The notes under the pieces were generated by a model. It ran no database searches and was not told the origin of the DNA. It saw only the letters and a program-made list of their open reading frames with translations. 64,000 bases of DNA from Pseudanabaenaceae cyanobacterium SKYG29 (GTDB taxonomy: Bacteria > Cyanobacteriota > Cyanobacteriia > Pseudanabaenales > Pseudanabaenaceae), in contig JANWWT010000001.1 of NCBI GenBank assembly GCA_025055675.1, positions 186,001 to 250,000 of the forward strand, given 5' to 3'. This document shows positions 5,210 through 48,078 of the stretch, piece after piece. The translations under genes and the position numbers were made by a program. Every line of letters begins with the position of its first letter. The first letter of the stretch is position 1.

Positions 5210-8200
5210 CTAGCTAATTCCCGTACCTCTAGTGGGAATGGTGACCCGCTCTTGGGAACGCCCAATTCTCACATAGTGATCAAAGGCACTGCGGAATTCA
5301 CCCCTAGCAATGGCTGTTGCCACATCAGGATAGAGGGAGAGATAGAATTGGGTGTCGAACATCGGTCCTGGGTCACGGTTTTCAAACTGCCCGATCTTAG
5401 TAAAGTGCTCTAACCCATTCTTGAACTCCCCTCTAGCCACAGCTGCCCTCACATCGGGGTTATTTTGCAGGTAGTAGCCCTCATCAAAAGCTGGTAGAGG
5501 TGGATTCTCTGCCTTGGGTCGCCGTTGCTCGAACATACCCTTACGGATAAAGTGCTCGAAGGGACTGCGGAAACCACCATCACGGATTTCTTGCTCTACC
5601 CCAGGATTAATGCGCAGGTACTCGCTGGCAATAAAGTTCGGGGATGGCTGCAAGCCCGCCTGTAATCCAACCTTGATGAAGTGGTCAAACGCCGATCGGA
5701 ACTGTCCAGAGGATACTGCTTGCGCTGCACTCGGATTCTGTCTCAGGTAGAATGCTGGGTCAAACAGTTCGCTGGGAGCACGGTTCTCAAATTGCCCCAC
5801 TAGGATGAAGTGTTCGAAGGCACTCTTGAACCGCCCTTGCTGAATGAGTTCCTTGACGATCGAGTTGCGATACAGGTAGTAGCCCTCATCAAACAGTAGC
5901 AGACGCGGATCAGCATTTTGGTACTGCCCCACCTTGATGAAGTGATCAAACAGGGAGCTAAACTGACCACGCTGTACTGCTGCTACCGCTTGGGGATTGT
6001 ACTGCCTGTAAACCTCCTCATCGTAGAGCAAGCTAGGCTGTAGACCTCTAAACTGCCCCACCTTCAGGTAGTGGTCTTCCGCATCGCGGAACTCACCCCT
6101 ACGAATAGCACTGGCAACATCAGGGTTGCGGCTGAGGTAGAAGGCACTGTCCACATAATCAGACACTGTGTTCAGACCACTTCTCGTACCATTCTGGAGA
6201 GCCTGATCTAGCGGGAGGATAATCGGCGGCACAATGCGCTCAGGAGCCACAGCAGTCACGATCGGGATGGAGTTATTGACAGTAACGAGAGTTGTGGTCA
6301 GCAACTGACGATTGCCAGGAGTTGTGAAGGATACCGTACCCAAGTTAGCACTGTAAGGGCCACCATAGCTAATGTTCCTTGTGTCTGTGGGGAACGGTGT
6401 AGCAAATGCCCCCGAGACAATGTTAGGTGTGCTGGGGCTAGTGAAGTTGACCGTTGCCGAGAAGATAGTCCGTGGGTTCAAGCTAGCAATCACAGGGAAC
6501 GTGACGATACCAGTGACAGGGTCATAGAACCCATTGTTAGACACCCTGACATTAGTCAAACCAGGGGGAACAATTGTTTGTACCTTCACATCCCGTGCCA
6601 CTTCATTACTGTTGTTGACTGTGGTGATGTTGTAGGTCACCTGCGTATTGGGTGGAATCACACGGAAGTCCACCTCGTTGAGTACCGTTACAGGCTGATT
6701 GGGATCAAGAGTGAGACGGTCTTCAAAGCGACCCACCCGCACAAAGTGGTCAAAGGCACTGCGATATTCCCCTCTTCTAACGGCAGCAGCAACATCGGGA
6801 TAGCGTTCCAGGTAGAACTTGGGATCGAAGAACGGACTGGGTCGTCTGCCTTCAAACTGCCCAAAGCGAGTGAAGTGCTCCAAGCCGTTGACAAATCTAC
6901 CTTGCTCTACAGCCGTCTTCACATCAGGGTTAGTCATTAGGTAGTAGCCCTCATCATAGAGCTGCAGGCGCGGTGGACGGAATTCAAACTGACCACGACG
7001 CAGGTAGTGTTCAAAGGCACTGCGGAATTTACCTTGTCTGATCAACTCAGCTACATCAGGGTTAGCAGCTAGGTACTTGCCACTATCAAACAGAGGCGTA
7101 GCATCTAGACCTGCTAGCAATCCCACCTTGATGAAGTGTTCAAAGGCAGACTTGAACCGACCTGATGCCAACTCGTCACGTACCTGTGGATTCCGTAACA
7201 AGTAGTAGTCTTGGTCAAACAACAGGCTTGGGTTGCGCCCCTCGAATTGCCCTACCTCCATGTAGTGGTCAAAGGGTGTGCGGAATTCACCTCTCTTGAT
7301 TGCCTCTTCTACCACGGAGTTGCGGAAAGTGTAGAAGCCAGGGTCAAACAGCAGCTGACGGGGATCACGCCAGTCATACTGACCCTTCTGGATGAAGAAC
7401 TCAAACAAAGATCGGAATTCACCTCTCCGCACTGCTTCTACCGCATCAGGGTTGTAGAGAGCAAAGACTTCGGGATCAAAGAGGTTGCTGGGCATTCTGT
7501 TCTGGAATTGTCCCACCTTCAAGAAGTGATCCAAGGGATCAGTGAAACGTCCATCGATCGATGCCTGCGGGAAAACAATCCCTAGCTGCCTTGCCAGATC
7601 AGGGAATAGAGCAGCCACATCAGGGTTGTTCTTCAGGTAGAACACCACATCGAAGAAGTCCACGATCGTATTCAGACCATTAGTGAGAATGCCATCCCGA
7701 TCGAACTGATTCTGCACAAAGATGTCTAGGTTCAGAAGATTGACCAGGCGGGGGTCAAAGTAGTAGTCCACAAAGGTAGCACCATTGGGAGCTGTAGTTC
7801 CTCCTTCAGGTCTGGGATCAAGTTGAAGAGCAGTAGGCGGAATATCCAACGGTGGGATAAACGGAGCAGGTGTAGGTGTAGGCGTAGCGATCGGGGTCAC
7901 TACAGTACTGGGAGTAGGTGTTGGCGTAGGCGTAGGAGTTGGTGTGGGAGTAGGAGTCGGTGTGGGAGTAGGTGCTGGGGTAGGTGCAGGAGTCGGCGCG
8001 GGAGTAGGTGTTGGCGTAGGCGTAGGAGTCGGTGTGGGAGTAGGTGTGGCTAGATCATCGTTAACAATTACACCAATCGCTTGAGTTTGTGCTGTCAAAG
8101 TAGCCTGTAAGCCAGGAACAGTTACTGGAGTACCTGTAATCCTCACGAAGAAGTTTTCGTCTGGTTCAATCTCAGTATCTCCATTCACTGTGACTGTAAT

Positions 8201-11200
8201 TGGGTTACTTGCCAGGCTTCCAGCAGGGATCACAACAGTACCGCTGTTAGCCACAAAGTCAGACCCACCTGTAGCAGAACCATTTGCCACATTGTAGGTA
8301 ATAGTAATTGGCTGAGCTGCAGTCTGAGTTAGAGTTACGGAGTAAATGAAACTAGAGGTATTGGTGCCACTATTGCCCTCAACAGCAGTAATAGAACCAC
8401 TAATACCAACTCCTACTGCATCATCATCCTGAATAACCCCAGTTGCTACTGACTGTCCTACAGGTACATTTGCTCCGGTGATGTTGACTGTGAAGTTTTC
8501 ATTCCCCTCTGGAATGCCATCATTGGTTACTGTTACGGTTACTAACGCGATCGTTTGACCAGGAGCGATCGTTACAGTGGCAGTTACAGGGGTAAAGTCA
8601 TTTGCACCTGCTGTACCTGTCTGGGTTTGATATGTTACAACCACCGGCTGAACAACTGGCCCATCCAGACTGATGGTGTAAACAAAACTACTTGTGCTTT
8701 CTGGTAAAGTCAGCACCCCAGGCACAATCGTTACACCAGCATCATCATTGATAATTACCCCTGTTGCTTGGGTTTGTAGTGTAAATGTCGGTTGCACTCC
8801 CAAACCACTGGTAGGCACACCTAGCAAGTTCACCAGGAAGTTTTCATTCGGTTCAGCAATCGTGTCTCCACTCACTGTTACCGTGATAGGCGAGCTACCA
8901 ATACTACCTGCAGGGATGACCACAGTACCACTATTTGCTACGTAGTCCTGAGTGGAGCTGGCAGGATTGCCCATGCCATCACTGGTACTGAAGCTGACAG
9001 TTACGGGTTGAGCTACCGTCTGAGTCAAGGTTACAGAGTAGATAAAGCTACTGGTATTTACTCCACTATTGCCTTCAAGAGCACTAATCAAACCGCTCAG
9101 ACCAACTCCCACAGGTATGAAGTCATTGTCTACAATCACACCCGTAGCCTGGGTTTGAGTGGTAAAGGTCACAGCCAAACCAGGAGCACTAATCGGTGTA
9201 CCAGTCAGATTGACAAAGAAGTTTTCATCAAATTCAGGCACCGTATCGCCAGAAGCAGTAACCGTCACAGGAGCACCGATCGAGCCTGCAGGAATCACTA
9301 CCGTACCAGTATTAGGCAGGAAGTCTTCACTTACCATAGCCGTACCACTTGCAGTAGTGAAGCTGACAGTTACGGGTTGGGCAGCTGTCTGGGTCAGAGT
9401 AATGGAGTAGACAAAGCTAGTGCTATCCGTGCCACTATCGAGTTCAGTAGCAGAGATCAGACCACTTAGACCAACACCCAAGGGGTCATTGTCTTGAATG
9501 ATACCAGTTGCCAAGGTTGTACCCAGCATGGCGTTAGTGCCATTGAGTTGGACTGTGAAGTTTTCTGTGCCTTCAGGGATAGAGTCATTGATAACAGTCA
9601 CAGTCACAGGTAGTACGGATTGACCAGGTGCAAAGGTAATTACTCCACTGGGAATGTCATTAAAGTCTACCCCTGCCATCGCTGTCCCAGAATTGGTCTG
9701 GTAGGTAACAACGATCGGGACGTTAGCAGTTTGACTCAGACTTACGTTGTAGACAAAGGCAGTGTTACTTTCTAGTTGCGATACAGTCCCAGGCAATAGG
9801 TTAACGATCGGTGTGTCATTATCTCTAATTACCCCCTGTGCCTGTGTAATTCCAGGCGGCACACTGGCTCCAATAATCCTGACTGTGAAGGTTTCATCTG
9901 GCTCCAGTTGGTTGTCATCAATTACAGTCACAGTGATAGGAACAGCAACCTGTCCCTGGGGAATCACAACTATCGCTAAGGGATTTGGTTCAAAGTCGGG
10001 TCCGCCAATCGCTGTACCGTTGATTACCTGATAGGTCACTGTGACATCACCAGCGGCTGGCTGGTTAAGAGTGATCGTGTAAACAAAGGCAGTGTTGCTC
10101 TCAAGCTGGGATACCGTGATAGGAATGAGATTGACCCCAGGGCTATCGTTGTCAACAATCACACCTGTAGCCTGTGTTTCAGGCGTAAAAGTAACATTCA
10201 AGCCCATTACACTTAGAGGAGTTCCAGTTAGATTCACAAAGAAGTCTTCGTTGCCTTCAATTACGTCATCTCCCAGTGCCGTAATAGTCAGCAATGTTCC
10301 GAGGTTATTAGCAGGAATCACTACTGTCCCCATACTGGTGACATAATCCATCCCTGCAGTTGCCATCCCATCAGCGGTAGAGAAGCTCACTGTTATGGGC
10401 TCTGCTGCTTGCTTGGTCAAAGTTACAGAGTAGACAAAGCTCATAGTGTCTTGAGCTGGACTGTTTAGTTCCACAGCAGATATTAGTCCGCTGAGTCCAA
10501 CACCTACAGGGTCATTGTCTTGAATGATTCCCGTTGCCGTACCCTGATTAATCATGGCATTGGAACCAATCAGGTTAATCGTGAATTCCTCATCTCCTTC
10601 AGGTAGATTGTCATCAACAACTGTAACAGTAACTAAAGCCAAGCTTTGACCAGGATCAATGGTTAGGGCGGTAGGTGGAATCACCATGAAGTCTGTGCCT
10701 GGTGTAGCACTGCCCACTGCTCCGGTTTGATAGGTAACAACTACTGGATTAGAGTTTGTTTGATCCAAAACGATCGAGTAGACAAAGGCGGTCATACTCT
10801 CTGGTTGTGTTACAGGGCTAGGCACGATCGATATGCCTGGCAAATCATCATTGATGATTACCCCTGCAGCCTGAGTTTGAGTGGTGAAGGAAACTAGCAA
10901 TCCAGGAGCACTAACTGGCATACCGATAAGCTGGACAAAGAAGTTCTCATCAGGCTCGATCATTGTGTCACCGCTGACAGTAACTGTGATCGGGTTACTT
11001 ACCAGTGCACCTGCTGGAATGACCACAGTGCCCATATTCGCGACATAGTCTTCTGTGGATAGAGCACTACCATTGGCAGTCTGGTATGTAACTGTAATCG
11101 GCTCTGAGGCTGTTTGACCAAGGGTGACGGAGTAGATGAAGCTAGTAGTATTGATACCACTGTTTCCTTCCAAAGCCGTGATGGTACCACTGATACCAAC

Positions 11201-14200
11201 TGGAACAAAGCCATCGTCATCCTCAATTGTCCCTGTAGCTGTTCCTTGCCCAATCATGGCATTGGAGGCAATCAAGTTCACTGTGAAGTCTTCGTTCCCT
11301 TCGGGATTGCTGTCATCGACTACTGTAACTGTGACAAGTGCTGTAGTTTGTCCTGCCCCGATCGCCACTACTGTTGGCGGAATGGGTGTGAAGTCCATGC
11401 CTGGTGTAGCACTGCCGCCTGTTGTTTGATAGGTAACAACTGTGGGGAAGGGAGCGGTTTGTTGCAGACTGATGGTGTAGACAAAAGCCGTCATACTCTC
11501 CATCTGACTGATATTCGGTAGGATGTCCACAGTGGGGAAGTCATCATTACCGATCGTTGCCGTTGCCTGACTCAGCTGTGGGTTGATTACAGTGTTGTTA
11601 CTCGCAGCAGTGAGTTGTACTGAGAAAGTTTCATCAGACTCGATCGTTGTATCTCCAGAAACTGTAACCGTAACAAGAGCTTGAGACTGACCAGTACCAA
11701 TAGTCACTACACCAGGAGTAGGTAACATACCACCTACAAAGTCTGTATTATCGGTAGTTCCGTTAGAGATTGCGTAGGTAACAGTAACTGGATCAGCAGC
11801 AGTTTGACCCTGACCTAGAAAGATAGTGAAAATGAAGTCAGTAGCCATTGTTGTCCCTTCAGGCAGCAACCCCGGACCAATGAGGTTTACACCCGCAAAG
11901 TCATTATCCAGTAATACTCCTGTAGCTGTGCCTTGATCGACAGTGATATTGTTGTTGCCATTGTTGTTAATTTTTACAGTAAAGTCTTCGTTGAATTCCG
12001 GAATGCCATCAGGAATTGAGGTGACTGTAATGACAGCTGTACTGGTATTCGCAGGGATCGTGACCAATCCATCATTGTCTTGGTGATCCATTCCTGCCTC
12101 AGCAGTGCCATCATTGGTGGTGTAGCTAATTGTTGTGGGAATAGGTAAAGTAGTTGACAAGGTGATCGTGAAGACGTAGTTGGTCGGTGTCATTGGACCA
12201 GCATCCTCTACAGCTACAGATTGGGCTGGTGTAATACCCACGATCGCATCATCATTGATAATCACTCCAGTGGCAACACTAGCACCAGTCACGATCGTTG
12301 CTGCCGATCCCATCGCTCCAGACGGCCCACTGACTACACTGGGTATTGTCACCGTAAAGGTTTCATCTGGTTCAACATCCGAATCAGGGTTAACAGTTAC
12401 AGTTACTACTTGAGAGGTTGTGCCAGGAGCAAAAATTAGCAAGCTACTGTTGTCTACAAAATCCATGTTGTCAGCAGGCATTGCTCCAGCACCTGCTGTT
12501 GCATAGCTAACTACAACAGGAACTTCGGAACTACTGCTCAAGCTGACGGTGTAGATGTAGGTGGTTGCCCCTGCTACGTTCTCAAGCTGGGAAATGCTTC
12601 CCATAATGGAAACACCCAGGAAGTCATCATTAACGATCGTGACAAAACCTGTAGTATTAGCGATCGGTGCATCTGAAGCATCGATAACTACATTGAATAC
12701 CTCATCGTTCTCTGGAATAGTCTCCCCAGAGACAGTAACAGGTACGGTGATACTGGTCAATCCTGGAGGAATCACAGCCGTTGCCATGTTGATCGGGGCA
12801 AAGTCATTGGTCGGTGTATCCATCGCCGTGCCCGCCTGGGTGGAATAGGTAACGGTAATAGGCAAAGTACTAGATTCTGGGATTGTGAAAGTTACGATGA
12901 AGTTGTTCGCGCTGTTACCTTCAACTTGAGATAGCCCTACCACACTGACAGGCGGACGATCGTCGTTGATCAATCTAGCGGTCGCTTGGGTGTTTGTGGA
13001 ATCCAGACTTGCCAGCATCGAGGGGCTGTCTGCACCAACCAAACGAACAAAGAAATCCTCATCATCTTCAGGATTGTTGTCTCCAATCCCCGTTACCGTA
13101 ATCAGTGCTGTCTGACTTCCCGCGGAAATTACAGTAGTGGCGTTTATGACTTGCATGTAGTCACTGTCACCAGTGGTAGCATTCATCATCGCCACCGTAC
13201 CATCTGCTGTTGAGTAAGTAACTGTGATGTCTGTGGAAGAAGTTTGATTCAGGGAAATTATGTACACGAAGAGTGGACTATCACCAGTCGTCCCCTCCGC
13301 CTGAGTAACTAACCCTTGCAACGATACCGTCACAAAATCATCATTAACGATTGTGCCCGTTGCCTCAGTCATGCCAGGACTGCCGCTGGTACCAGTAATC
13401 TGCACCAAGAAAGTCTCATTCGCTTCAGGAATGTTGTCCCCAGATACCGTTACAGTAACCAGCCCAGTTATCATCCCAGCAGGAATCACTGCTACAGCAT
13501 CCATGACTTGCTGATAATCGTTATTTCCAGTGGTAGCAGTGCCATCCATTGTGCTGTAGGTAACCGTTGTATCCACAGTGTTCGTAGCATCCAGACTCAA
13601 AGTGAAGACAAAGTTGGTGTTGCCACTAGTGGTCTCAATCTGACTGACTCCCAAAATGTTAACTTGAGAGGGGTCATCGTTAACCAGTACAGCGGTTGCC
13701 TGACTGTTGGTTGTGGAAATACTTGCCAGCATGTCAGGGCTGTCCACACCCGTCAGTTCTACAAAGAAATCTTCATTTGGCTCAGCCATCGTGTCCCCGT
13801 TGGCAGTCACCGTAATCAGTGCTGTAGACTGACCAGGGTCAAACACAACCATACCTGTCAACATGTTGTAGTCACCATCCCCAGCCATCGCTGAACCATC
13901 AGCTGTGGCATAGTTGACAGTGATAGGCTCTGCCGCTGTGTTGTTGGCACCACTGCTCAGGGAAATCGTGTAAACAAAAGTGGGAGAACCAGCAACATTG
14001 CCCTCCAAGGAAGACAACGAACCCTGCAGCGATACTGTCACAAAATCATCATTCCCGATCGTTGCCTGAATGGATGTTGTACCCAAGGTTTGGTCAGCCA
14101 TGATGGAAACACTGAAAGTTTCATTGGCTTCAGGGATCGAGTCAGTTTCAATAGTAATCGGTACTACTGCTGTTAGAGTGTTGGCAGTGATAGTAACTGT

Positions 14201-16297
14201 CTGTAAAAAGCTAGTGCTAAGATCAAAGTCCGCAGCATTTGTTGTCATGTTCGTGATGTCAAGGGTGACTAGGGTAGGACTTGACGTAGTGCCAGAAAGA
14301 CTGAGAGTATAGTTCTGCACATTCATCCCACCAGTTTGTTCCAGGAAGGAGGTGGGTCCTAACAAGGTGACGGCAGGGTTAGTGTCATCATCAACGATCG
14401 TGCCTATGGTCTGACTAGCTGTAGAATCGATAATCGCCGTAATGCCCCCAGGAATTGTGCTGGGGTTGCTCAGCTGTACCTTAAAGGTTTCGTCAGGCTC
14501 TAGGGCATTGTCACCGCTGACAACAACAGTTATCACCGTTACAGATACACCTGGAGCAAAAGAGACTGTTCCTGCGCTTGCTTGGTAGTCAACATTTCCC
14601 GTAGCAGTCACATCCATTGTGCTGAAACTTGCTGTGATTGGGAATGGAGCCGTTTGACTAAGGGTAACAGTAAATAAAAAGTTCGTCATTGTACTCGTGT
14701 TACCCTCGTTGTTACTGAAGCCGTTGGAGAAGCCAATTATAGGAGCATCATCGTTAACGATCGTGTTAGTGAAAACGGTCGGCTGACCCGTACCAAACAT
14801 GAACGTAGAGTCCATGAAGGTCACTTCAAATGTTTCATCATTTTCGGGGTCTGTGTCAGGGATGATAGTAACAGCAAAAGTAGCAGAGGTCTGATTAGCA
14901 GGAATAATTACAGTTGTTGAAGTGTTATTAAAGTCAGTGCCACCCATAGCAGTGATGTCCATGAAGCCATAGGTGATGGTAGTGGGCAGGGGGGAACTGG
15001 CGGCCATCCCATTCGAGAACGTTAACCCAACAGTGTAAATAATCACATTCGGAGGTGCCATGTTCCCTTCAGGTACGCTACCCGAATTCCCAAGTATACG
15101 AAGTTCAGGGGCATCAAACATGAACCCAGCTAAGAAGCCCACGCCGTGGGATTGGTCAGCAGGCACAGGACCATCTCTAAACTCGATCGTAAAGTCAGTT
15201 ACAATACTAGTAAAGCTGAGCGTAGCGTTGGCACCCGCACTCTCTGTCCCAGTAGGCATCACACCAGTCATAGGACTAGCAGTGTCCTCTCCAGCGAACA
15301 ATCGCACATTCATAGTGCCGGAGTTTTGAATCATTACGGCAGAATCACCTATAGCACTGATATTGGATGCTGCCTTTACCATGACATCATCTTGGAACTG
15401 TTGCAATGGGTCAGAGAGAGGCACTGTATAGTTGGCATCAATGTTGGTCAAAATGAAATTTGTCTCATTTACATTGATGGGGGTCATAGTGCCAGTAACA
15501 AAGAAACTGACTTTGATGTCCAAACCAGCAGCGGGATTCGCCACACCGTCTTGAGGTGGCAGAAAACTGGCAACAAGTGGAGTTGCGCCAATACCACCAG
15601 TAAACATCCCTGTATCATCGATCGTTGCTGCAGTTGCCCCACCAACCGCAACAATGCTGATCTCAACATCAACACCTGAACCACCTACATCCATGAAGGT
15701 CTGAGTACCTGCTCCAGGAGGGTTCCAGTCAAAGGGCATTCCCCCAAAGCCCAGATTGACAATGAACAGAGTCTCCTGGAAATTAACCACCTCGATCGCT
15801 CCTGTCTCGATCGGGCCCGTTTGATACTCCAGTACCCAGTTACCACCCAGGACAGAGTTACCCGTGAGGTCATCGGAAGCGGCTACATCAGCACCAGTGA
15901 GCCGAGCAATACTGTCAATCAGTTCCTTGCCAGAGGTAGTGCTTGCCAGATTACAGCCGTAAAACAGAATGTCAGCATCGGCACCTAAAGCCCTTGCCCA
16001 AGATTCCAGGAGGGGAGAGTAAGTTCTAATCGTGTTTGTGTTAAGAAATGTATTACCCAACTGGACGGAGCCATTATCCCCGTGGGAGAAAATATGAACA
16101 CTGTTGAGGTTGTTAAATTTGCTTAAAGCTTCCGTAATGGTGGAAATACCATTCTGGTCTGGGTCTATGTAAAGGACAGGTGCCCCAGAGGGCAGTGCTT
16201 GCACGATCGTTTGGTAATTCGCAATGCCCCGATCGATAATGTACAACTCACTACCTGTTTGGGTGTAAACCGCATTACTTTCGAGATAAAAAGACAT
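5210..16297 (-). CDS. Giant DUF4347 / multi-Calx-beta surface adhesin-like protein
   Basis: 3,695 residues. Residues about 12-180 form a DUF4347 domain ([50 protein letters not shown]). This is the usual N-terminal domain of very large cyanobacterial extracellular proteins and lacks a classical signal peptide. After a beta-rich stretch come about 20 Calx-beta units of 110-120 residues (about 400-2745), each ending in an INDD/VNDD/QDND-type calcium-binding motif. A Thr-Pro linker (about 2750-2810) follows, then seven 45-residue units of the type FDxxYYLxxNPDVxxAxxxGxFxSAFEHFxxxGQFExR, a DUF11-like beta domain, and a second set of seven such units. It is most likely a calcium-stabilised fibre secreted by a type I-like route. 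The start near 16297 has no strong ribosome site but fits the family N-terminus. Confidence 0.85.
5235..7660 (-). repeat. Two seven-unit protein repeat cassettes in the adhesin C-terminus
   Basis: Fourteen copies of a roughly 45-codon unit (core FD-x-x-YYL-x-x-NPDV ... [19 protein letters not shown]) lie in two blocks, about 6705-7660 and 5235-6160. They are separated by a DUF11-like domain. Unit n of block one matches unit n of block two better than its own neighbours, so the whole cassette was probably duplicated. Confidence 0.75.
7865..8052 (-). repeat. Low-complexity Thr-Pro/Ala-Pro coding tract
   Basis: The plus strand reads as GGTGTnGG-type hexamers that encode alternating TP and AP dipeptides for about 60 residues. 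The tract sits between the last Calx-beta unit and the C-terminal repeat cassettes and probably forms an extended, possibly glycosylated stalk. Such tracts change length easily by slippage. Confidence 0.85.
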
Positions 16298-18465: not shown

Positions 18466-19317
18466 ATGCCTGAATTGCCAGAAGTAGAAACTATCCGATC
18501 GGGTCTGGCGCGTACTACCACTAATTGCTCTGTAGAAAGCTGTGCGGTTTTGTTAGCAAGAACGATCGCTTTTCCCGATGTTATAACTTTTCAGGAGGCA
18601 TTAGCAGGACAGGTATTTGGTGCCTGGCGCAGGCGGGGTAAATATCTTTACTGCCAGTTATCTGCGGGGATTTTAGTTATTCACTTACGGATGACGGGAC
18701 AGTTGAAGTGGAATTGCCAAGAACAGCCAGTCTCTAAGCATACACGGGTGCGCTTTTGGTTTGTAGGCGGTAAGGAACTGCGTTTTGATGACCAGCGGAC
18801 TTTTGGGCAAATGTGGTGGGTGCCTCCCGATCGGTCGATCTCCAGTATTGTCACTGCCTGGCAGAGTTTAGGAGTAGAGCCTCTGGGCACTGATTTTACA
18901 GTTGAGTATCTCCAGCGGAAACTACAAAATAAACAACAAGCAATCAAGAGTGCTCTTCTCGATCAAACGATCGTGGCAGGGATTGGCAACATCTATGCTG
19001 ACGAATCTTTGTTTTTAGCAGGGATTCATCCCCAGCGAGCCTGTCATTCTCTCACGGCAGCAGAAATAGTTAAACTCCATCAAGCTATCATCCAATCTCT
19101 GCAGGCGGGTCTTAGGTATGGGGGGACAACTTTTAGTAGTTACCTAGACAGCAATGGAGAGCGGGGCAATTATTTAACAGTAGCTTGGGTATTTCGTCGG
19201 ACAGGACAACCCTGCCGTGTCTGTGGCACACCGATCGAGCGCTTAAAAATTGGTGGTCGTTCATCTCACCTTTGCCCTACTTGTCAGCCCATACATCAAG
19301 ACTTGTCATCTATTTGA
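18466..19317 (+). CDS. mutM: Formamidopyrimidine-DNA glycosylase (MutM/Fpg)
   Basis: 283 residues. A bifunctional DNA repair enzyme that removes 8-oxoguanine and other oxidised purines and nicks the abasic site. The N-terminus MPELPEVETIR supplies the catalytic Pro2 and Glu3. The H2TH region (LLDQTIVAGIGNIYADESLFLAGIHP) and the C-terminal zinc finger (CRVCGTPIERLKIGGRSSHLCPTCQ) are intact. The start codon is fixed by the obligatory MPELP N-terminus. The last codons overlap the convergent end of the kinase-PstS fusion by about 8 bp. Confidence 0.96.
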   Translation: MPELPEVETIRSGLARTTTNCSVESCAVLLARTIAFPDVITFQEALAGQVFGAWRRRGKYLYCQLSAGILVIHLRMTGQLKWNCQEQPVSKHTRVRFWFVGGKELRFDDQRTFGQMWWVPPDRSISSIVTAWQSLGVEPLGTDFTVEYLQRKLQNKQQAIKSALLDQTIVAGIGNIYADESLFLAGIHPQRACHSLTAAEIVKLHQAIIQSLQAGLRYGGTTFSSYLDSNGERGNYLTVAWVFRRTGQPCRVCGTPIERLKIGGRSSHLCPTCQPIHQDLSSI

Positions 19318-20211
19318 TGGCTTGACAACCCTTAGGAGTACGAATTGGCACAAATCCTGATCTGGCGATTAGTGATTGTCCTTCATCAGTGAGAAGCAAG
19401 TTACCATATCTGGGTTATTGTTACCAGGATAGTCTTTGTAGACTACATATAACTCACGATAAAAGGGATAAACCAGGTTCCGAAAAGCTTTCTCATTGGC
19501 TTGCCGCCTACAACCTTTACCGAATGTCAATTCGCCTTCATAGGGAGCAACAAACTTCCCACCATCACTCACGGGCAAAGGACGGACATCACAGCGAGGG
19601 AGAACTTGGGCAGCAGAGGCATCAAAAATTCCCCCAGGGTCAGCCGCTACCCGATCGAGGGCTGCCGGTGTCCCACTGACAAACACTACTCGCGGGTGAT
19701 GTTTTTCCGCTTGCAAAATATAATCACTGAACCAACCTGTACGGGCGCTGGGGTGGGCATAGGGAGTGATAGCCCGATCGGGACCGCCTAGTTCTTTCCA
19801 GTTTGTCACTTTGCCAGTGTAAATATCTTTAATTTGGCTGCGAGTTAGACCAGGAAGATTAGACAAGCTGGGATGGACAATAAAGACAGTGGGATCGACT
19901 GCTACTAAAGTTTGCTCCAGGTTGTAGCCTTTTTGTTGTGCAGTTATTTTTTCTATTTGTCGCAGAGGGCGACTCGACTCAGCAAAACTTAAACGATTGT
20001 TTAACAGCATTTGAATACCAGTATGGGAACCCCGTGGTCCTTCATCAGGAGTAGGGTTGGTGTAGCGAATACGAAAATCAGGAGATAGTAGGAAGGCGGG
20101 AACTTGCCATTTCCCTGCGAATGTTGTCCCAGGTTGTAGAACCACCATAGTTAAAGACTCCTGCTGGCACATTTGACACATCCGCGAAGGTTGTACAAGT
20201 CTTTCTAGCAA
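19310..20211 (-). pseudogene. PstS-like phosphate-binding domain, C-terminal part of a frameshifted kinase fusion
   Basis: A PstS-like periplasmic-binding-protein domain that belongs C-terminal to the kinase upstream. The domain begins in the kinase frame (TFADVSNVPAGVFNYGGSTTW, about 20120-20190). It continues one frame over from about 20085 (PDFRIRYTNPTPDEGPRGSHTGIQML, FAESSRPL, GLTRSQIKDIYTGKVTNWKELGG, AVDPTVFIV). It returns to the kinase frame near 19405 for its end (NLLLTDEGQSLIARSGFVPIR, stop at 19310). The two shifts cancel: 19310-21139 is exactly 610 codons. In the family this domain is thought to sense or bind phosphate-like ligands outside the membrane. The open frame at 19369-20211 is only the middle part, and its first about 40 codons are out of frame with the real protein. 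Confidence 0.7.
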
Positions 20212-21139
20212 GTAGCGACCACAGAAGAATAAAAATTACTGAAGACAAAAACAGAGATGATAACAAAACTACTTTCTCTTCTGTCCGATTTTTGGTAGAG
20301 TTATACCTATGCTGTATTTGTATATCTGTATTCCCCCCTTGCAAAGCCGACAAAACTTCCCTGGCATTCCTATAACGCTGGCGGTAATTCCGCTTGACTA
20401 TTAGACGGGGACTGATTAAGTTAGTATCAACACAGATATGCCAATGCACCTCTCCTGCTTCTGTGTCGCCAAAGTGATCGGGGGGCACACCCCTCAAGGC
20501 TTGAATTGCCACCATCCCCACCGCATAAACACCACTGGCAAATTTGGGCTTACCGATTGCCTGTTCAGGAGCAATATAACCAGGAGTACCGATCGCCACA
20601 GACAGGTGACTTTTACCCGTATCCTGCATCACTTGTTTAACTGCGCCAAAGTCGATTAACACCAATTTGCGGTCGCCCTTTCTTCTGATGATGTTATCGG
20701 GTTTAATGTCGCGGTGGATGACTCCCCGATCGTGAAGTTCTGCTAATACAGGGAGAATATTCTGTAAAAATTCAATTACCTGGGGTTCTTCCCAAGGCTG
20801 ATTTGGTACTAGTTCATTGCTGAGGGGATGTCCGTCAATAAATTCTTGCACAAGATAAAATTCCTTGTCCTCCTCAAAGTAGGCATAGAGAGTAGGTACC
20901 TGTTCTAAACTCCCCAGTCTTTCCAGGGTTTCTGCTTCAGTCTTAAAAAGACGGCGAGCAACTGCTAGGAATTCAGGGTCAGTACTTTGGGGGCGAAGAT
21001 GCTTAACCACACAGGGAGGATTGCCTGGTCTTTTGGTGTCTGTTGCCAAATAGGTATGACCGAAACCACCCCTACCCAAAAGTTTAATGACCTGATACCT
21101 ACCGTCTAGTAGTTTGCCGATCATTTTTTCCTTTTCCAC
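20078..21139 (-). CDS. Serine/threonine protein kinase (N-terminal part of a PstS-fused kinase)
   Basis: Residues about 14-270 are a eukaryotic-type protein kinase: glycine loop LLGRGGFGHTYLA, catalytic Lys in CVVKHL, HRDIKPDN catalytic loop, DFG in VLIDFGAVKQ and APE in GYIAPEQA. The Asp normally following the APE segment (SDxYAxG) is Gly here (SGVYAVG). A transmembrane helix lies at about 295-315. The extracellular part then starts as a PstS-like domain but meets a stop at 20078 because of a frameshift. Cyanobacterial kinases of this build sense external signals and phosphorylate cytoplasmic targets. With the frame as given, the protein would keep the kinase and membrane anchor but lose its sensor. 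Confidence 0.8.
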   Translation of the reverse strand: MEKEKMIGKLLDGRYQVIKLLGRGGFGHTYLATDTKRPGNPPCVVKHLRPQSTDPEFLAVARRLFKTEAETLERLGSLEQVPTLYAYFEEDKEFYLVQEFIDGHPLSNELVPNQPWEEPQVIEFLQNILPVLAELHDRGVIHRDIKPDNIIRRKGDRKLVLIDFGAVKQVMQDTGKSHLSVAIGTPGYIAPEQAIGKPKFASGVYAVGMVAIQALRGVPPDHFGDTEAGEVHWHICVDTNLISPRLIVKRNYRQRYRNAREVLSALQGGNTDIQIQHRYNSTKNRTEEKVVLLSSLFLSSVIFILLWSLLARKTCTTFADVSNVPAGVFNYGGSTTWDNIRREMASSRLPTIS

Positions 21140-35029: not shown

Positions 35030-36673
35030 CTATCCCCACAATTTTTGGAACTCCCGCCGATCGGTCAGAAACTGCAAAAAATCACGGCATTCAGGCGAGT
35101 TATCAGGGAAAATAGTTAGGAGTTCGATGTATTCCACGCTCTGACCATTCAACTTGAGGGTTTGTCGTTTGCCGTCCACCATGTCTATAACCGGAAACAT
35201 CCGATGCCACAGCCGCCCGATCGTGCCCATCCTGCCAGTAAGAAAAGTTCTTTTAATTGACTTGCCTCTGGCATACTCTCTATGCAGCCAATCAATAGCC
35301 AGAGAATCTTCTCTATTTTCTGCCAATCTACCCCAAACCCGCACATTGCCCCTACGCCATGCTTCCCGCCAATTGCAACTGTTACTAAACTGGACATTGT
35401 ACATACTCAACCATTCCCTCGCTGTGTTTTGTAATGTGTCCAAAAAGTTAGTGATTGTCGCCAGACCCGATCTAGCTAACTTACTTTTGAGGGGATTTTC
35501 CAACCACTGCCAATGACAACCGATTAGAGGTCTATTGTTAGCTTGATAGTATTCTTTGTAAAACAAGCGATGGTCAGCTCTGCGCCAGGACTTGCCAAAT
35601 CCACCAAAGGTTACAGCAAATATATTGAGCTGTTCAATTAGTTGTTGCAAGACGTTTCTCTTCCTAGGATCATCCACCGACTTAGCTAACAACCATTCCA
35701 GGTCACCTTCTACCTTGTAGGTAGGGACTTCCCAATTACCACTGCCAAATCTCCCCATCTCTAATCTATGAGTTGTGAAGTTCATCAGTAGGAGTCCCAC
35801 CGTCCCATGACCGCTGACACCGCCAAAGAGTCTTTCCACTTCCCTGGTAGCAGTTCTTTCATCTGTTAGCCCACCAAATATGCGCATGGCATGACCCCGC
35901 AGAGCTGCACGGAACATGTTGGGACGAAATTCTCCCTCTCCACTTAGCAACTTACTGGCCATCCCCTGACCCTTAAGTGAATGCACAACATACAGCCTCT
36001 CTCCTGCCACGGCTTTAGCATGACCATAACCTGCACTGACACGACAACCAATTCCTTTAGCAAAAGCTTTTTCCCATATCTTCCAAATAGTTTCCCATTC
36101 TTCATCACTCAGAGGTTCTGTGCTAGAGATAGCAAACCGTAACTCTGGTTGATAAAGAGAGATTTGGACAAAAGCTGAACTCCCTTGACTTTGATTCCTG
36201 CTAATTACTTGTCTCTGTTGTTGAGGATGGACAATATCAACTAACTTATTTCTCCAATTATTACTGGTAGGATAGCCCCCGTGAAATCGCAAAATACCTG
36301 GATGCAACTCTCTACTATTGGCTGGACTACCACAATAACGCACTGCTTGTTCCCTAGTACAAGCTCTTCTGAACGCCCCTTTCATACTACTGCCAGGGTA
36401 GAAAGGATAGCCCCGCGCACCAAGCACAGGACGAATAACACCTTCGTCTTGCCCTGAATTAGTTACAAATCGCCAGGTAATCTGATACGTACGGGTTTGT
36501 AGGTTTGGGAACGCTGGCGGTTGCGGATGTATTTCCCTTATCAGTTCCTCTGCCCACAATTCTGCATCTTGTTTACCCTGGCGGTGGGGGTCAAGGCGCT
36601 GAATTTGACATCTACCTTGCACTTGGGCTCGGTAAGCCATCGGGATTTTGTTCAAGGGATCAGGTACTGGCAT
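35030..36673 (-). CDS. Two-domain RAMP protein: Cmr6-like fused to Cmr1-like, type III CRISPR effector
   Basis: An open frame reaches 36706, but the start is set at ATG 36673 because GGAGG lies 5 bp upstream, giving 547 residues. The N-terminal RAMP half has GYPFYPGSSMKGAFRRA (PGSS loop) and the glycine-rich GIGCRVSAGYGHAKA. These fit Cmr6, the end-cap subunit of the type III-B complex. The second half has a second RAMP pattern, FRPNMFRAALRGHAMRIFGG...VERLFGG, and another glycine-rich loop, FGGFGKSWRRADHRLF, closest in style to Cmr1. A Cmr1 function would be target 3'-end recognition. No separate Cmr1 or Cmr6 gene is present, so this protein may cover both. It is the last gene of the effector operon. 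The domain calls rest on motif pattern alone. Confidence 0.68.
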   Translation of the reverse strand: MPVPDPLNKIPMAYRAQVQGRCQIQRLDPHRQGKQDAELWAEELIREIHPQPPAFPNLQTRTYQITWRFVTNSGQDEGVIRPVLGARGYPFYPGSSMKGAFRRACTREQAVRYCGSPANSRELHPGILRFHGGYPTSNNWRNKLVDIVHPQQQRQVISRNQSQGSSAFVQISLYQPELRFAISSTEPLSDEEWETIWKIWEKAFAKGIGCRVSAGYGHAKAVAGERLYVVHSLKGQGMASKLLSGEGEFRPNMFRAALRGHAMRIFGGLTDERTATREVERLFGGVSGHGTVGLLLMNFTTHRLEMGRFGSGNWEVPTYKVEGDLEWLLAKSVDDPRKRNVLQQLIEQLNIFAVTFGGFGKSWRRADHRLFYKEYYQANNRPLIGCHWQWLENPLKSKLARSGLATITNFLDTLQNTAREWLSMYNVQFSNSCNWREAWRRGNVRVWGRLAENREDSLAIDWLHREYARGKSIKRTFLTGRMGTIGRLWHRMFPVIDMVDGKRQTLKLNGQSVEYIELLTIFPDNSPECRDFLQFLTDRREFQKLWG

Positions 36674-36689
36674 ATTGCCTCCACATTTA

Positions 36690-37793
36690 CTACAAGTGTT
36701 TATCAAGTCTGTCTAGGACAAAAACGTTATCTTCAAAGTGTCCATATAGACGCTTAGCATCTAGGTCTGACCAAGCATCCATTTCATGGGTAGAAGGGGG
36801 ATAGGGATTTTTGATAAGTTTGAAATCCAAAGAATTTGGATTAGGCTGATCTGGTCTTTCTAAATAACAAGCTAGTTGATCTATCCTGCAATTGAGAATG
36901 ACATACCGATCGGTCATCAAACCTTTTGTACTGTCTAAAAATCTATCTCCATACCTGATCTTGGGACTGGGTGAAGGTAGTATTTCTTGACTGTAAATAG
37001 AATCTTTGATTTGTCGCCATTGTAGCTCCCCCCACGCAGAGAAACCATACCTGCCGTCTATTTCTAATAGAAGTATATCGGGGATACTGCTTACCTCCTG
37101 TTCTGTCACTGGTAAATTTTCTGCTAAGCGTCTGAAAGTCTGCAGGTTGTTTTTTATCTCTTCCTCAACGATCATTCGTACAGGCATGCGCGGTATGCGC
37201 AGGAGTTCAGTGGCATTCTCAAAAATGTAGATTGTCTCGTCGGCATAGAAGTTTGCTAAAGCCTGGAGAAATCCTTGTACACTCTTGAACCCACCTGTAA
37301 GATTAAAGACTATCTGATAATTACTGTTTCTATAGCCTGTGACCGTTTCATCTATCCATCCCACTAACTCAGACAGTGCAAATTGAAACTCTAGTAGATT
37401 GGCAGTGCGTAAATCCTTTTGGCGATAAATCTGCACTTGGGATGTAACTTTATCCAACAGCCATGTCTGTACAAGTTCTGCTGTAACTTCCCCTAGCCAT
37501 GTGTCAGTACAGACTAAGTAGTGAAAGTCTTGCTTTTGCTCTACCTTTCTGCTGTAGAAAGTGATGATACCATTTAATTCAGCTGACATTTTTGCTGCTG
37601 TCTCTACATCTGCTCCAATCAACTTCTGTTGCACTTCGTCTATTCTACTGAGGAGAACCTGCCGATCGGTTTCTGATACTTCTTCTGGTTTCCTAACATT
37701 GGCATGGCAAATACATAGTCGTCTTTGTTCTTCTGTAGCACCATTTGTGAGGATGCTAGTACCACAGGGAGAAATTATAAACCTTGGTTTCAT
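36690..37793 (-). CDS. CARF-domain CRISPR effector with RelE-like C-terminus (Cami1-like candidate)
   Basis: 367 residues. The N-terminal CARF Rossmann-like part has the nucleotide-site loops SPCGTSILTNG (residues 8-18) and FNLTGGFKSVQGFLQAL followed by DETIYIFE. These are usual in proteins that bind cyclic oligoadenylates made by Cas10. The C-terminal about 100 residues (YGDRFLDSTKGL, ILNCRIDQLACYLE, SLDFKLI, STHEMDAWSDLDAKRLYGHFE, FVLDRLDKHL) look like a RelE-type ribosome-dependent mRNA interferase. That is the build of the known CARF-RelE effector Cami1. No HEPN R-x4-6-H motif is visible. On activation it would cut mRNA and stop translation. Assignment of the RelE part is from pattern only. 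Confidence 0.6.
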   Translation of the reverse strand: MKPRFIISPCGTSILTNGATEEQRRLCICHANVRKPEEVSETDRQVLLSRIDEVQQKLIGADVETAAKMSAELNGIITFYSRKVEQKQDFHYLVCTDTWLGEVTAELVQTWLLDKVTSQVQIYRQKDLRTANLLEFQFALSELVGWIDETVTGYRNSNYQIVFNLTGGFKSVQGFLQALANFYADETIYIFENATELLRIPRMPVRMIVEEEIKNNLQTFRRLAENLPVTEQEVSSIPDILLLEIDGRYGFSAWGELQWRQIKDSIYSQEILPSPSPKIRYGDRFLDSTKGLMTDRYVILNCRIDQLACYLERPDQPNPNSLDFKLIKNPYPPSTHEMDAWSDLDAKRLYGHFEDNVFVLDRLDKHL

Positions 37794-37811
37794 ACTAATT
37801 TCCTCCTCCTG

Positions 37812-37883
37812 TTATTTACCCTGATGGTGAGAGTTGAGGCGTTGAATTTGAAATCTGACCTGTAGTTTGGTTCGGCAAGTCAT
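37812..37883 (-). pseudogene. 23-codon remnant matching the start of the cmr6-like gene
   Basis: The minus strand reads ATG, then TCRTKLQVRFQIQRLNSHHQGK and a stop. The intact gene at 36640 downward reads MAYRAQVQGRCQIQRLDPHRQGKQD at the same place. The nucleotide match runs over about 70 bp. It sits exactly between the PD-(D/E)xK gene and the CARF-RelE-like gene. Confidence 0.75.
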
Positions 37884-37887
37884 TGAA

Positions 37888-38493
37888 TCATGCTCCCTCC
37901 AAAATACCGACCAGAATTTTTACTAACTCTATCACATTATCGGGCACGGTGTAAATAGAGATATCCTCTGTAATTGTTTGATTGTGGGCATCTAAAATTC
38001 CGAATAGCCAGGCACTACCTAGTGTTACTGCTCCATATATCACTCTATTATTCTCTTCCCACATGGATAAGGCAATCATTTCCACTGCTAATTGAGTAAA
38101 CCCCCGTGTTAAATCATCCCGCTTTGCCTCCACTACAATCAAGGTGTTCTCACCCCTGAGCAAATAATCTAAACTACCTTGTAAAAGGTTATTAACTTTT
38201 AGGGGATATTCTATACGCAGTATCTTTTGACAAATTACAGCTACTCGACTCAGTATGGGAGCGACTAAAATTTCCCTCCTTGCTAATTCACTGTTGAGCA
38301 TTACATAGGGCAAAGTTTCCTCCAGATTATGTTTAAGTTGCTCAATATTCTCAAGATGTCGATTAGTTTTAGGCAGCTTCACTCTAGTTTTCACTAGCCT
38401 GTAATTAAACTCTGCCAAAATTTCATCGGTGTCGTTTGGCAGTTCAAAGTAGGAGCGAAAAGTGTAGGTACTGTTTTGGTCAAGAATCTTCAT
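37888..38493 (-). CDS. PD-(D/E)xK nuclease-like protein inside the CRISPR effector operon
   Basis: 201 residues. The motif pattern LLQGSLDYLL ... TLIVVEAKRDDLTRGFTQLAVEMIAL (Asp, then E-x-K, then a Gln-containing helix) is the signature of the PD-(D/E)xK nuclease fold. It resembles type I restriction HsdR N-terminal and cyanobacterial hypothetical nucleases. It lies 6 bp after the gene for the small helical protein, in the same direction, so it is co-expressed with the type III complex. It could add DNA cleavage to an effector whose Cas10 lacks the HD domain. That is inference; no family with a known CRISPR role is recognised. Confidence 0.6.
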   Translation of the reverse strand: MKILDQNSTYTFRSYFELPNDTDEILAEFNYRLVKTRVKLPKTNRHLENIEQLKHNLEETLPYVMLNSELARREILVAPILSRVAVICQKILRIEYPLKVNNLLQGSLDYLLRGENTLIVVEAKRDDLTRGFTQLAVEMIALSMWEENNRVIYGAVTLGSAWLFGILDAHNQTITEDISIYTVPDNVIELVKILVGILEGA

Positions 38494-38499
38494 ATCTAG

Positions 38500-38898
38500 C
38501 TACTTATATCTTTGCGTCCACCACACGATCGCATCACACAGTTGGGTAAGCACTGCCAAAGTTACTCGCTGGTCATCTAAACTTAAAGACCACAACCTTT
38601 GTGCCATATTCCTGATACTTGTAGTGTTGTTTGGTTGTACTTGGTCATTCGGAACAGTGATCCCAGCTTGTCTCATAATTTCCACTAAGGCTGTCCATGT
38701 TTCCCTCCAAAAAGTGGCTTTTGCTTGCGTCCCATGATGCCCCTGCAAACGCAAATGTTCACCCCAAAACCTTTCTAAGCCATAGGCAGTGGTCATCCGC
38801 ATCTTGTAGGCTTGATTAAGACTGTCAGGGTCTCTCTGCTTGGCATCCAAAACCAGTTTTTGTGCCCTCCGATCGAGTTCGTAACTACGCCATGCCAT
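38500..38898 (-). CDS. Small helical protein, probable Cmr5/Cas11-type subunit
   Basis: 132 residues, almost entirely helical by composition (MAWRSYELDRRAQKLVLDAKQRD..., WRETWTALVEIMRQAGI, MAQRLWSLSLDDQRVTLAVLTQLCDAIVWWTQRYK). The size, helix content and position next to the Cmr4-like gene fit the small subunit (Cmr5) that lines the belly of type III-B complexes. No direct sequence match is recognised. The start ATG 38898 overlaps the upstream gene by 14 bp and has GGAGGAG upstream, so translation is coupled. Confidence 0.5.
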   Translation of the reverse strand: MAWRSYELDRRAQKLVLDAKQRDPDSLNQAYKMRMTTAYGLERFWGEHLRLQGHHGTQAKATFWRETWTALVEIMRQAGITVPNDQVQPNNTTSIRNMAQRLWSLSLDDQRVTLAVLTQLCDAIVWWTQRYK

Positions 38899-39712
38899 TG
38901 TAGTATTCTCCTCCTAGAGTAACTTTACATCTACCAAAACCGACTGACTCTAAACCACCGAAGTACATTTCACAGGTATTGGTGTCAATGAACGGTTCCC
39001 ATCCCTTTTCTTTGATAGCTATAGGGAAAACAAAGACGCTCCCTTCGGGAATTGCTTCCACATTGAAAAATGCTCCCCCTTCCACTTTTTTCTCACTGTC
39101 TGCTAATTTCACTCGACTCTGGCGATAAAGAGCCATGTCATGGAGCAAAGCGATGTCATTGTCTCCTACTACAACCAGGCTACCTTCTGCTAGGTTTGTG
39201 CCTGGGGGAATCCATTCTTGTAGAGAACTTTCGTGCTCAATTTCCAGGAAGCCCAAGTTAAAAAAGAGAATTTTTCTTCTGTTTTGACCTTGGGTATCGA
39301 TCTGTCTTGCCCTTAAGCTACGTGCGGCACAGTAGGGTGGGGGAATTTCTGCTCTAATACCCACGATCGCTTTATATCTTGCTAGCAACCGAGGACAGGA
39401 AATCCACACCACAGGTTGACCAGGACAAAACACAGGTAACCACACCAAAGATGCATATTCAAACTTCACCAGTGCTTCCGTAGTTTGCTCATTCCCTGCC
39501 TCGCTGCCATACCATTTGTTGACATGACCTTTGTTATCCCCATTGCGCATATCAGCCCTAAATCTACCGCGAATAGAACTGCCAGGAATAATCCCCGTGC
39601 GTGTAAATTGATCACAAAAGATGAGATTAAGGTTGCCTGTTTCCTCCCCTGCGCTTGCTCCCACGTGCAAAGGGGCGAGAGTTTCAATGATACCGTAGGC
39701 TTTGTAATACAT
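38885..39712 (-). CDS. cmr4: Cmr4/Csm3-like RAMP backbone subunit of the type III complex
   Basis: 275 residues. LAPLHVGASAGEETGN near residue 15, IIPGSSIRGRFR near residue 41 and the C-terminal glycine-rich FGGLESVGFGRCKV match the Cmr4/Csm3 backbone that coats crRNA and normally cuts target RNA every 6 nt. Counting back from PGSS, the place of the catalytic Asp (Asp33 in Streptococcus thermophilus Csm3) holds Leu28. The only Asp in this loop is Asp34 in CDQF, which aligns with a later, non-catalytic Asp. It may therefore bind but not slice target RNA. The ribosome site GGGAGG lies 5 bp before ATG 39712. Confidence 0.7.
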   Translation of the reverse strand: MYYKAYGIIETLAPLHVGASAGEETGNLNLIFCDQFTRTGIIPGSSIRGRFRADMRNGDNKGHVNKWYGSEAGNEQTTEALVKFEYASLVWLPVFCPGQPVVWISCPRLLARYKAIVGIRAEIPPPYCAARSLRARQIDTQGQNRRKILFFNLGFLEIEHESSLQEWIPPGTNLAEGSLVVVGDNDIALLHDMALYRQSRVKLADSEKKVEGGAFFNVEAIPEGSVFVFPIAIKEKGWEPFIDTNTCEMYFGGLESVGFGRCKVTLGGEYYNGMA

Positions 39713-39725
39713 ACGTACCTCCCAA

Positions 39726-39976
39726 CTAATTTACAAACTGATGTAAGATGTCCAGAATTTTGTCAACTTCGTTAACATAGTATTCGTCCCATCCGATCGG
39801 GCTCTTTCCCTATCACTGGCAAGAGCTAGGGGTGTAGTTTCTGCTAATAAATTGCCTAGAAATTGACTGGATGCTTTGGGTGGTGTTTCCCGTAGCAGGT
39901 GGGGGCGATCGTTTAGTTCTAACTCAAATTTATTAATCACCATCTCCAAGGTAAAATCACTATAAACCATAATCAT
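39726..39976 (-). CDS. Truncated nuclease-like (PDDEXK N-terminal) small protein in the cas operon
   Basis: The open frame 39731-39976 gives 81 residues. SQFLGNLLAETTPLALASDRERARSD resembles the region just before the catalytic core in cyanobacterial restriction-like proteins (usually ...LAIATNSEKARSEWIISPIL). The core itself is absent. In the next frame, after a stop near 39813, lies a plausible ending (GWDEYYVNEVDKILDILHQFVN, stop at 39726, 14 bp before cmr4), so one frameshift near 39805 may have changed the C-terminus. It could be a decayed gene or a real small subunit. Function unknown. Confidence 0.4.
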
Positions 39977-39982
39977 CTCCCC

Positions 39983-40930
39983 CTAAACTGCCAATGCCAA
40001 TCCGCAGCCCCATCGCTTGTAACTATAAGCAGATTTGGGGAAAATATTCTCATCCCATGCATACCAACTTTCTAACCCTTCATTTAATACATACACAGTG
40101 CCTGGAGGTGTGGCGTAATGCCCCCTAGATAATCTACCTCCTAAGCGGTAACGAAAAGGGATAGGACGAGCGGTTAGCAAAGCTTCCAACTTTCTTTCCC
40201 ATTCTTCAGGATAGCGTAAAGATTGGCGGTTAGACCCCCACACAGCCGCAGTAATCAGAGCAAAATTACCACCCACAGGACGATCGAGAATTGCTTGCAC
40301 AGCGGCAGAAATTTCCACACATTCTACATTTACTAGATGTCCTTCTCCCCCAAACCGATACCAGCCATTGTCTAGCCTGTCCGTAGCAAGGTAAATTAAA
40401 CGACAATTAGGGGGCATTTGCACTGCATTTTCTAAAAATAAACTTCCCTCTTCATTATCTTGCCTAACAGTTCTCTCCTCTTCTGCCAAGCGAGGATGGA
40501 GATGAGGGATGAATTTCCAGGGAGCTGCTTCTACTGTTTGTGGATTTTGCCATTGTTTGATTGGTAGCCATGTATTTTCTGTAAATTTACCACTGATTTT
40601 TGCCCCTTCACTGTCAACCCATTTAGTACCATTCCAGACCAAGCGATGGACTACCTTGTTGCCTTCAACCAATAAATGGAAAGGGGTGGGCACAAAGAAA
40701 TTCTGTAAATCATTATCGTATGCCCAAAATGGACCTGCCACTGCAAAATTACTATCTTTTAGAGCCATAGACTCCCTGTGGGCAAATAGACCTGTAATGG
40801 CTACAGCAAGGGGGGGAAAGGCAGCCCCTGACCTCCCTACCAAATTTTCAGGTGAGAGAAATCGTCCCCGACTACCATAGAGGAAGCCTAGGGGATTTAT
40901 TGAGATTATGTATCTGAACATAGATGCCAC
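39983..40930 (-). CDS. cmr3: Cmr3, type III-B CRISPR RAMP protein
   Basis: 315 residues. The N-terminus FRYIISINPLGFLYGSRGRFLSPENLVGRSGAAFPPLAVAITGLFA is diagnostic of Cmr3, the subunit that sits next to Cmr2 and helps hold the crRNA 5' tag. Later blocks LYLATDRL-like (LIYLATDRLDNGWYRFGGEGHLVNVE) and KRWGCGLALAV close the fold. The start may be ATG 40930 or 40921 (MFRYII); both overlap the end of cas10 by 16-25 bp. The downstream gene begins 7 bp after its stop. Confidence 0.85.
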   Translation of the reverse strand: MASMFRYIISINPLGFLYGSRGRFLSPENLVGRSGAAFPPLAVAITGLFAHRESMALKDSNFAVAGPFWAYDNDLQNFFVPTPFHLLVEGNKVVHRLVWNGTKWVDSEGAKISGKFTENTWLPIKQWQNPQTVEAAPWKFIPHLHPRLAEEERTVRQDNEEGSLFLENAVQMPPNCRLIYLATDRLDNGWYRFGGEGHLVNVECVEISAAVQAILDRPVGGNFALITAAVWGSNRQSLRYPEEWERKLEALLTARPIPFRYRLGGRLSRGHYATPPGTVYVLNEGLESWYAWDENIFPKSAYSYKRWGCGLALAV

Positions 40931-47986: not shown

Positions 47987-48078
47987 CGGAGAGAGAGGGA
48001 TTCGAACCCTCGGTACGGACTTTCGAACCGTACAACAGATTAGCAATCTGCCGCTTTCGACCACTCAGCCACCTCTCC
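47987..48078 (-). tRNA. tRNA-Ser (anticodon GCT)
   Basis: A class II cloverleaf with long variable arm: acceptor GGAGAGG/TCTCTCC, anticodon stem CAGAT/ATCTG around GCT, variable arm with GTACGG/CCGTAC pairing, T-arm GAGGG-TTCGAAT-CCCTC. 92 nt, no CCA encoded. Confidence 0.95.

Follow-up and report, generated by a model that had tools for sequence, protein, structure and literature searches.

The window, by which we mean the whole 64,000-nucleotide stretch of DNA analyzed here (contig JANWWT010000001.1, positions 186,001 to 250,000, of Pseudanabaenaceae cyanobacterium SKYG29), carries on its minus strand a broken gene that joins a serine/threonine kinase domain to a PstS-like periplasmic-binding (PBP) domain. 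The genome (G000) comprises 2.56 Mb in 18 contigs, with a completeness of 97.2. The gene runs from 21139 down to 19310, a span of 1830 nt, or 610 codons including the stop; all three of its forward frames were examined. The features of the locus are as follows:

18466 to 19317, plus strand: mutM/fpg, the flanking convergent gene, with an overlap of 8 bases at the end of the broken gene
19310 to 19408, minus strand: the last 33 codons including the stop, YGNLLLTDEGQSLIARSGFVPIRTPKGCQAIK*, again in the kinase frame and not reached by reading in that frame
19408 to 19413, minus strand: site 2, a net loss of 10 nt between CCA (19413-19411) and TAT (19408), where the kinase frame resumes
19369 to 20082, minus strand: the PstS-like periplasmic-binding domain in the +1 frame, with no internal stops, closed by TAA 19371-19369
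20077 to 20083, minus strand: TCC TGA T, the end of the kinase frame, which resembles the eukaryotic antizyme +1 site (UCC_UGA)
20083 to 20128, minus strand: site 1, a gain of 1 nt between a conserved Trp (20131-20129) and a conserved Pro (20082-20080, PBP frame)
20210 to 20272, minus strand: a likely membrane helix, VVLLSSLFLSSVIFILLWSLL, read by eye
20399 to 20407, minus strand: the junction of an in-frame loss of six residues (LVAILEKMV in the paralogue, LIV in the window)
20531 to 20533, minus strand: Asp to Gly (GGT) at DxYxxG, where all 35 other kinases in the alignment have Asp
20078 to 21139, minus strand: the kinase-frame ORF of 353 aa (GTG 21139, TGA 20080-20078), with the kinase domain and the likely membrane helix
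21545 to 21616, minus strand: tRNA-Thr(UGU), upstream of the broken gene

The first piece matches the kinase family PF00069 (Pkinase; E 1.6e-32, 113.4 bits versus a gathering cut-off of 31.7); its start in the ORF list is the GTG at 21139, and the starts of its relatives align with an ATG at 21124. After the likely membrane helix the kinase frame continues for 43 residues and ends at TGA. The ORF of the PBP frame, 280 aa from 20211 to 19369, lies one base off the kinase frame, and the off-frame piece, read in its own frame, matches PF12849 (PBP_like_2; E 3e-21, 76.8 bits versus a cut-off of 27), although by itself it misses the NCBIfam PstS cut-offs (TIGR02136, 80.4 of 206.6 bits; TIGR00975, 21.8 of 205 bits). 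Over the off-frame stretch the kinase frame meets 18 stops and the other two forward frames meet none and 14, so the open PBP frame is not a product of chance. When trained on 13,358 codons from other genes of the window, a codon-usage model with no input from homology and with one switch penalty tried changes frame twice, at 20167 and 19407; homology places the changes more sharply, the first within 20128-20083 and the second within 19413-19408.

The first-pass annotation had described a kinase-PstS fusion of 610 codons with two compensating frameshifts. The ORF limits, the tail in the kinase frame and the codon-usage model agree with its frames, coordinates and total length; the two frame changes appear both in that model and in the homologue alignment, and the two Pfam matches bear out the fusion. 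Its view that the kinase would lose its external sensor also stands. The shifts do not compensate, however: the TGA falls within 17 codons of the conserved Trp, and since the kinase frame ends there and meets 18 stops before site 2, the equal total length restores nothing and is a matter of arithmetic only. Equal total length should thus not be equated with compensating frameshifts. A separate restart of the PBP frame is unlikely, because its ORF starts with TTG at 20211 and shows no export signal by eye, and because the product would be without the FNYGGSTTW stretch, which is itself encoded in the kinase frame.

Lesions in the kinase and sensor domains

The window kinase was compared with 35 others, 13 of them from its own genome, after six duplicate or partial rows had been dropped and one further kinase of this genome (L030) had been left out by the motif filter. 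It keeps the Hanks-type hallmarks, namely the catalytic Lys, HRD, DFG and APE, and the presence of GRGGFG, VVKHL, FKTEAE, HRDIKPDN, DFGAV and GTPGYIAPEQ counts against a pseudogene. So does its overall conservation: it breaks 2 of 41 columns that are at least 90% constant, compared with a median of 1 over 36 rows, and is no outlier. It departs from the Hanks type in subdomain IX, where the conserved Asp of DxYxxG, which in PKA anchors the regulatory spine to helix F (PMC5130182), is replaced by Gly. In addition, a C-lobe segment that is nine residues long in all 35 of the other kinases is reduced to three. The first-pass annotation had recorded both frame changes and was silent on these two in-frame lesions of the kinase domain.

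The two frame changes were measured against homologues, a set of best hits and as such biased to intact genes, of which 36 were left after a motif filter that excluded G001:C28, L062, L063 and L064; for the PBP counts, row L098_2, which is cut by the end of its locus and whose full gene has no stop, was dropped. The comparison with intact relatives that had been proposed as a check gave a uniform result in that all 36 keep one frame across both sites. At site 1, the interval from the Trp/Phe after the GGST-type motif to the Phe/Leu of PxFxLRY is 17 residues in 36 of 36 homologues and 52 nt, that is, 17 codons plus one base, in the window gene. In the window gene the codon for the Pro that 35 of 36 homologues share lies in the +1 frame and overlaps TCC TGA, and the extra base must therefore lie upstream of it, within 20128-20083, an interval in which the longest runs are of three bases (GGG, AAA, CCC). 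At site 2, the distance measured was that from YPx to the last LL[T/S]. Of the 35 homologues parsed, 34 have 25 residues (75 nt) there and the remaining one has 24; L041, which the script did not parse, shows the common length by eye. In the window gene the distance is 65 nt. The front of the [AV][GA]xxY motif, kept in 36 of 36 homologues, is missing. The return to the kinase frame near 19405 had been placed correctly, but it is not a one-base shift, and the net loss of 10 bases may represent one event or several. Two lower-listed matches (G370 and G153) carry an internal stop.

The PBP domain shows a three-residue alignment gap at the GGTVEFF loop of the homologues. It deviates in 16 of the 73 columns with at least 90% constancy, where the median over 37 rows is 2, and sits on the longest end branch flagged in the tree (1.44 versus a median of 0.17); both values favor a pseudogene, although the branch exceeds what recent decay alone could give. 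By itself this divergence proves nothing, because the branch is too long and because the intact rows of the paralogue C7 and of its relatives in G001 and G002, described below, break 24 to 32 columns, more than the window does. The loss of frame is recent, as had been proposed, because the PBP frame is still without a stop over the off-frame stretch. Neither the kinase frame nor the PBP frame carries a nonsense substitution, which counts against a pseudogene; the absence of nonsense changes in about 610 codons suggests, as a rough estimate, that few neutral changes, a few percent at most, have accumulated since the break.

The intact paralogue and the history of the copy

The genome of the window encodes an intact paralogue (G000:C7, L040 3563-5422, 619 aa), which keeps the DxYxxG Asp and the C-lobe segment. 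It shares neighbors with its orthologue in one congener (G002:C4, 614 aa), and the orthologue in the other (G001:C7, 608 aa) lies beside other genes. These three proteins resemble the intact form of the window gene in consisting of a kinase, a membrane helix and a PstS-like domain, and their kinase domains are 77% identical to that of the window over 265 columns. Their PBP domains, in contrast, belong to another, diverged branch, with RFSSG in place of YGGST and 36% identity to the window. Between the window kinase and that of C7, pN is 0.15 and pS is about 0.75, with silent sites saturated, and for this reason no omega is given; the kinase stretch was long under constraint, so the window kinase was once a working gene. 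Among 264 positions in the four sequences, the odd one out is the window at 36, C7 at 2, G001 at 16 and G002 at 4.

In the kinase tree the four sequences group together (SH-aLRT 100), with the window copy outermost and C7, G002 and G001 joined (SH-aLRT 86), a position that may be affected by its fast branch. The PBP tree separates window-type from C7-type domains. A recent duplication of C7 is unsupported, as the window kinase falls outside the C7/G002/G001 group and the PBP branches differ. The positions of the copy in the two trees therefore indicate that it probably arose before the three genomes diverged, and the sensor would have been changing fast for a long time. The copy was not found in the congeners G001 (90% complete) or G002 (98%), each of which yielded one strong match, the C7 orthologue. 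Among the matches listed from 38 genomes of the family, which were ranked by E-value, identity above 57% is confined to the window gene, C7 and its orthologues in G001 and G002, and at least 13 of the listed kinase matches hold one stop. A search of genome contigs with the kinase returned eight loci, the two nearest of which are the C7 orthologues in G002 and G001, and plasmid records returned three weak kinase matches; with the PBP frame, no relative was found in the search of genome contigs.

The broken gene lies between an ndhD-psaE-mutM block, which supplies its downstream genes (NAD(P)H-quinone oxidoreductase subunit 4, photosystem I subunit IV and formamidopyrimidine-DNA glycosylase), and a tRNA-Thr-hydrolase-histidine kinase block, with the breakpoint in synteny at 19317/21545. 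The two blocks are on different contigs in G002, and in the stretches fetched no trace of the broken gene was found beside either. Promoter-like sites are fewer than the shuffle mean, and terminator-like sites are above it, within one standard deviation. As a separate observation, mutM/fpg of the congener G001 (L078 1853-2676, G001:C18) is split into two frames at about codon 38, which may be an error of a draft assembly.

The architecture is not peculiar to this locus. Bacterial serine/threonine kinases joined to periplasmic solute-binding domains have been described before, in Streptomyces coelicolor and Nostoc (PMC1262709), although the binding domains in those kinases are of other types (Glu/Gln, ANF receptor like) and the available text of that paper makes no mention of PstS. 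The words phosphate-binding, periplasmic, PstS and PBP are likewise absent from the available text of PMC2176072, and no paper on kinase-PstS-type fusions was found in the literature searched. Such fusions exist intact in this genus and in two further cyanobacteria among those searched: L109 (G214, 640 aa), in which a kinase is followed by a PBP start of the YGGSTTW type in one open frame, as in the intact form of the window gene, and L112 (G317, 768 aa), which has a kinase domain and a YGGS motif in one open frame. Their frames are intact, unlike that of the window gene, and their kinase domains are distant from it. The stand-alone cyanobacterial PstS family (a tandem pair on G000:C4 and L080-L108) is 40-47% identical to the off-frame domain; these proteins have open frames of 338-433 aa with no internal stop, too short to hold a kinase too.

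Two minor observations concern the same domain. The pair on G000:C4 (L073 3529-5625) consists of two tandem stand-alone PstS-like genes where G002 has one, with similar neighbors. A further type of cyanobacterial PBP fusion occurs in L110, L113, L115 and L116 (open frames of 563-593 aa), where the PstS-like domain follows an N-terminal part that, judged by eye, resembles the receiver of a response regulator.

Interpretation of the broken gene

Frame-breaking lesions in a gene that is intact in relatives are what marks a pseudogene, and we consider it likely that the window gene is a recently disabled, redundant paralogue of a membrane serine/threonine kinase with an external PstS-type domain; an ordinary pseudogene is its most likely identity. 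Other one-pass sensor kinases are thought to work by coupling an outer ligand-binding domain to an inner kinase, and on that model the outer domain of the intact form would bind a ligand, possibly phosphate or another oxyanion, and set the activity of the kinase inside. At least four lesions would then have disabled the copy: the replacement of the DxYxxG Asp by Gly, the six-residue loss in the C-lobe, the base gained shortly past the sensor's first conserved strand, and the net loss of 10 bases near the sensor's end. Normal translation would now yield only a 353-residue membrane kinase fragment, sensorless and with two damaged kinase elements, which is predicted to be catalytically inactive. 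The intact C7 paralogue may have made the copy dispensable. The frames, the lesions and the paralogue are observed, as is the failure to find a second copy in the two congeners searched; the loss of activity, the order of the lesions and redundancy as their cause we infer.

The truncated product might alternatively be a working membrane kinase, constitutive or otherwise regulated, that has lost its sensor. Its frame is fully open, it retains the catalytic motifs and the likely membrane helix, and its codons were long constrained; moreover, short kinases occur in cyanobacteria, with 35 of fewer than 400 residues recorded (PMC2176072), and some of the listed kinase matches have open frames of 297-380 aa, although part of these may be cut by contig ends. 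Among the 36 aligned kinases, however, only that of the window has Gly at the DxYxxG Asp and only that of the window is without the six C-lobe residues, and we regard a working fragment as unlikely. An error of assembly or sequencing, with one or both frame changes absent from the organism, is also improbable. It is suggested by site 1, a single extra base, and by the provenance of the sequences, G001 and G002 matching metagenome assemblies and the window genome, with its 18 contigs, perhaps being one too. Yet the net loss of 10 bases from a near-constant motif is not what a base-calling slip produces, the runs at site 1 are of three bases at most, and the Asp-to-Gly change and the six-residue loss are not errors of frame. 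Poor assembly as the cause is unlikely: outside the finding, 35 ORFs of 200 aa or more are listed for the window (17,470 codons, with one of 3,695 aa). A split gene would not show up in a list of this kind, so 20 neighboring ORFs were also scanned with Pfam; no adjacent pair matches consecutive parts of a single family, and 4 of the 20 have no family match. The first-pass annotation had left open whether the shifts were recent or errors; for the second site, error is unlikely given the loss of 10 nt, and for the first, a gain of 1 nt, it is possible. Two one-base errors are accordingly rejected for site 2 and kept as a rival for site 1, and were site 1 alone an error, the lesions near the end of the gene and in its kinase would remain. 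Where reads are lacking, the length of homologues across each break, here +1 and -10, can help to tell mutation from a base-calling error.

That ribosomes shift by +1 at TCC TGA T, in a programmed or leaky manner, and so join kinase and sensor in a fraction of the product is far less plausible. UCC_UGA is the shift site of most antizyme genes (PMC5009743), and the stop context of the window gene shares it; the direction of the shift fits, and the PBP frame is open. TCC TGA T occurs 10 times in the window on both strands, and of the 265 stop-to-stop frames with 60 or more codons one closes with it, a match spotted after the fact. The U that follows UCC_UGA we take to be part of the antizyme site as well. 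The signal is nevertheless eukaryotic, and the bacterial and bacterial-phage examples in the available text of PMC5009743 use CCC_UGA. Further points weigh against it: no frame change is kept in the homologues, 36 of 36 of which have one frame across both sites, an orthologue of the window copy itself not having been found; no stable structure lies downstream of the stop (z -0.08); a shift at TCC would skip the Pro that 35 of 36 homologues keep and that is encoded in the +1 frame; and the second change is left unexplained, with no in-register XXXYYYZ heptamer of the -1 type near it, and a frameshift product would still be without the motif lost at site 2. Apart from a stop context like that of the antizyme site, nothing found speaks for programmed frameshifting. 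We attach even less weight to the idea that an antizyme-like UCC UGA U site lets one mRNA yield sensor-bearing and sensor-free forms of the kinase, which is extremely unlikely.

A recently disabled paralogue, the reading we prefer, matters little when taken alone, adding one more decaying member to a cyanobacterial signaling family. A better target, for the question whether cyanobacteria sense external oxyanions through serine/threonine kinases, is provided by the intact kinase-PstS fusions of this group.

Other features of the window

Three observations away from the locus are recorded here. On the minus strand at 35030-43501 lies a Type III-B-like CRISPR set comprising Cas10/Cmr2, Cmr3, RAMP proteins and two separate Cas_APE2256 genes, which we take to be of the Csx1 type. 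Also on the minus strand, an ORF of 3,695 aa (5210-16297) has an N-terminal DUF4347 and 18 Calx-beta stretches, and its product is probably a giant surface or secreted repeat protein. Finally, a match to the Rfam family Plastid-psbl-rps4 on the plus strand at 47987-48043, just over threshold, lies antisense on a tRNA-Ser gene and is probably only that gene seen from the other strand.
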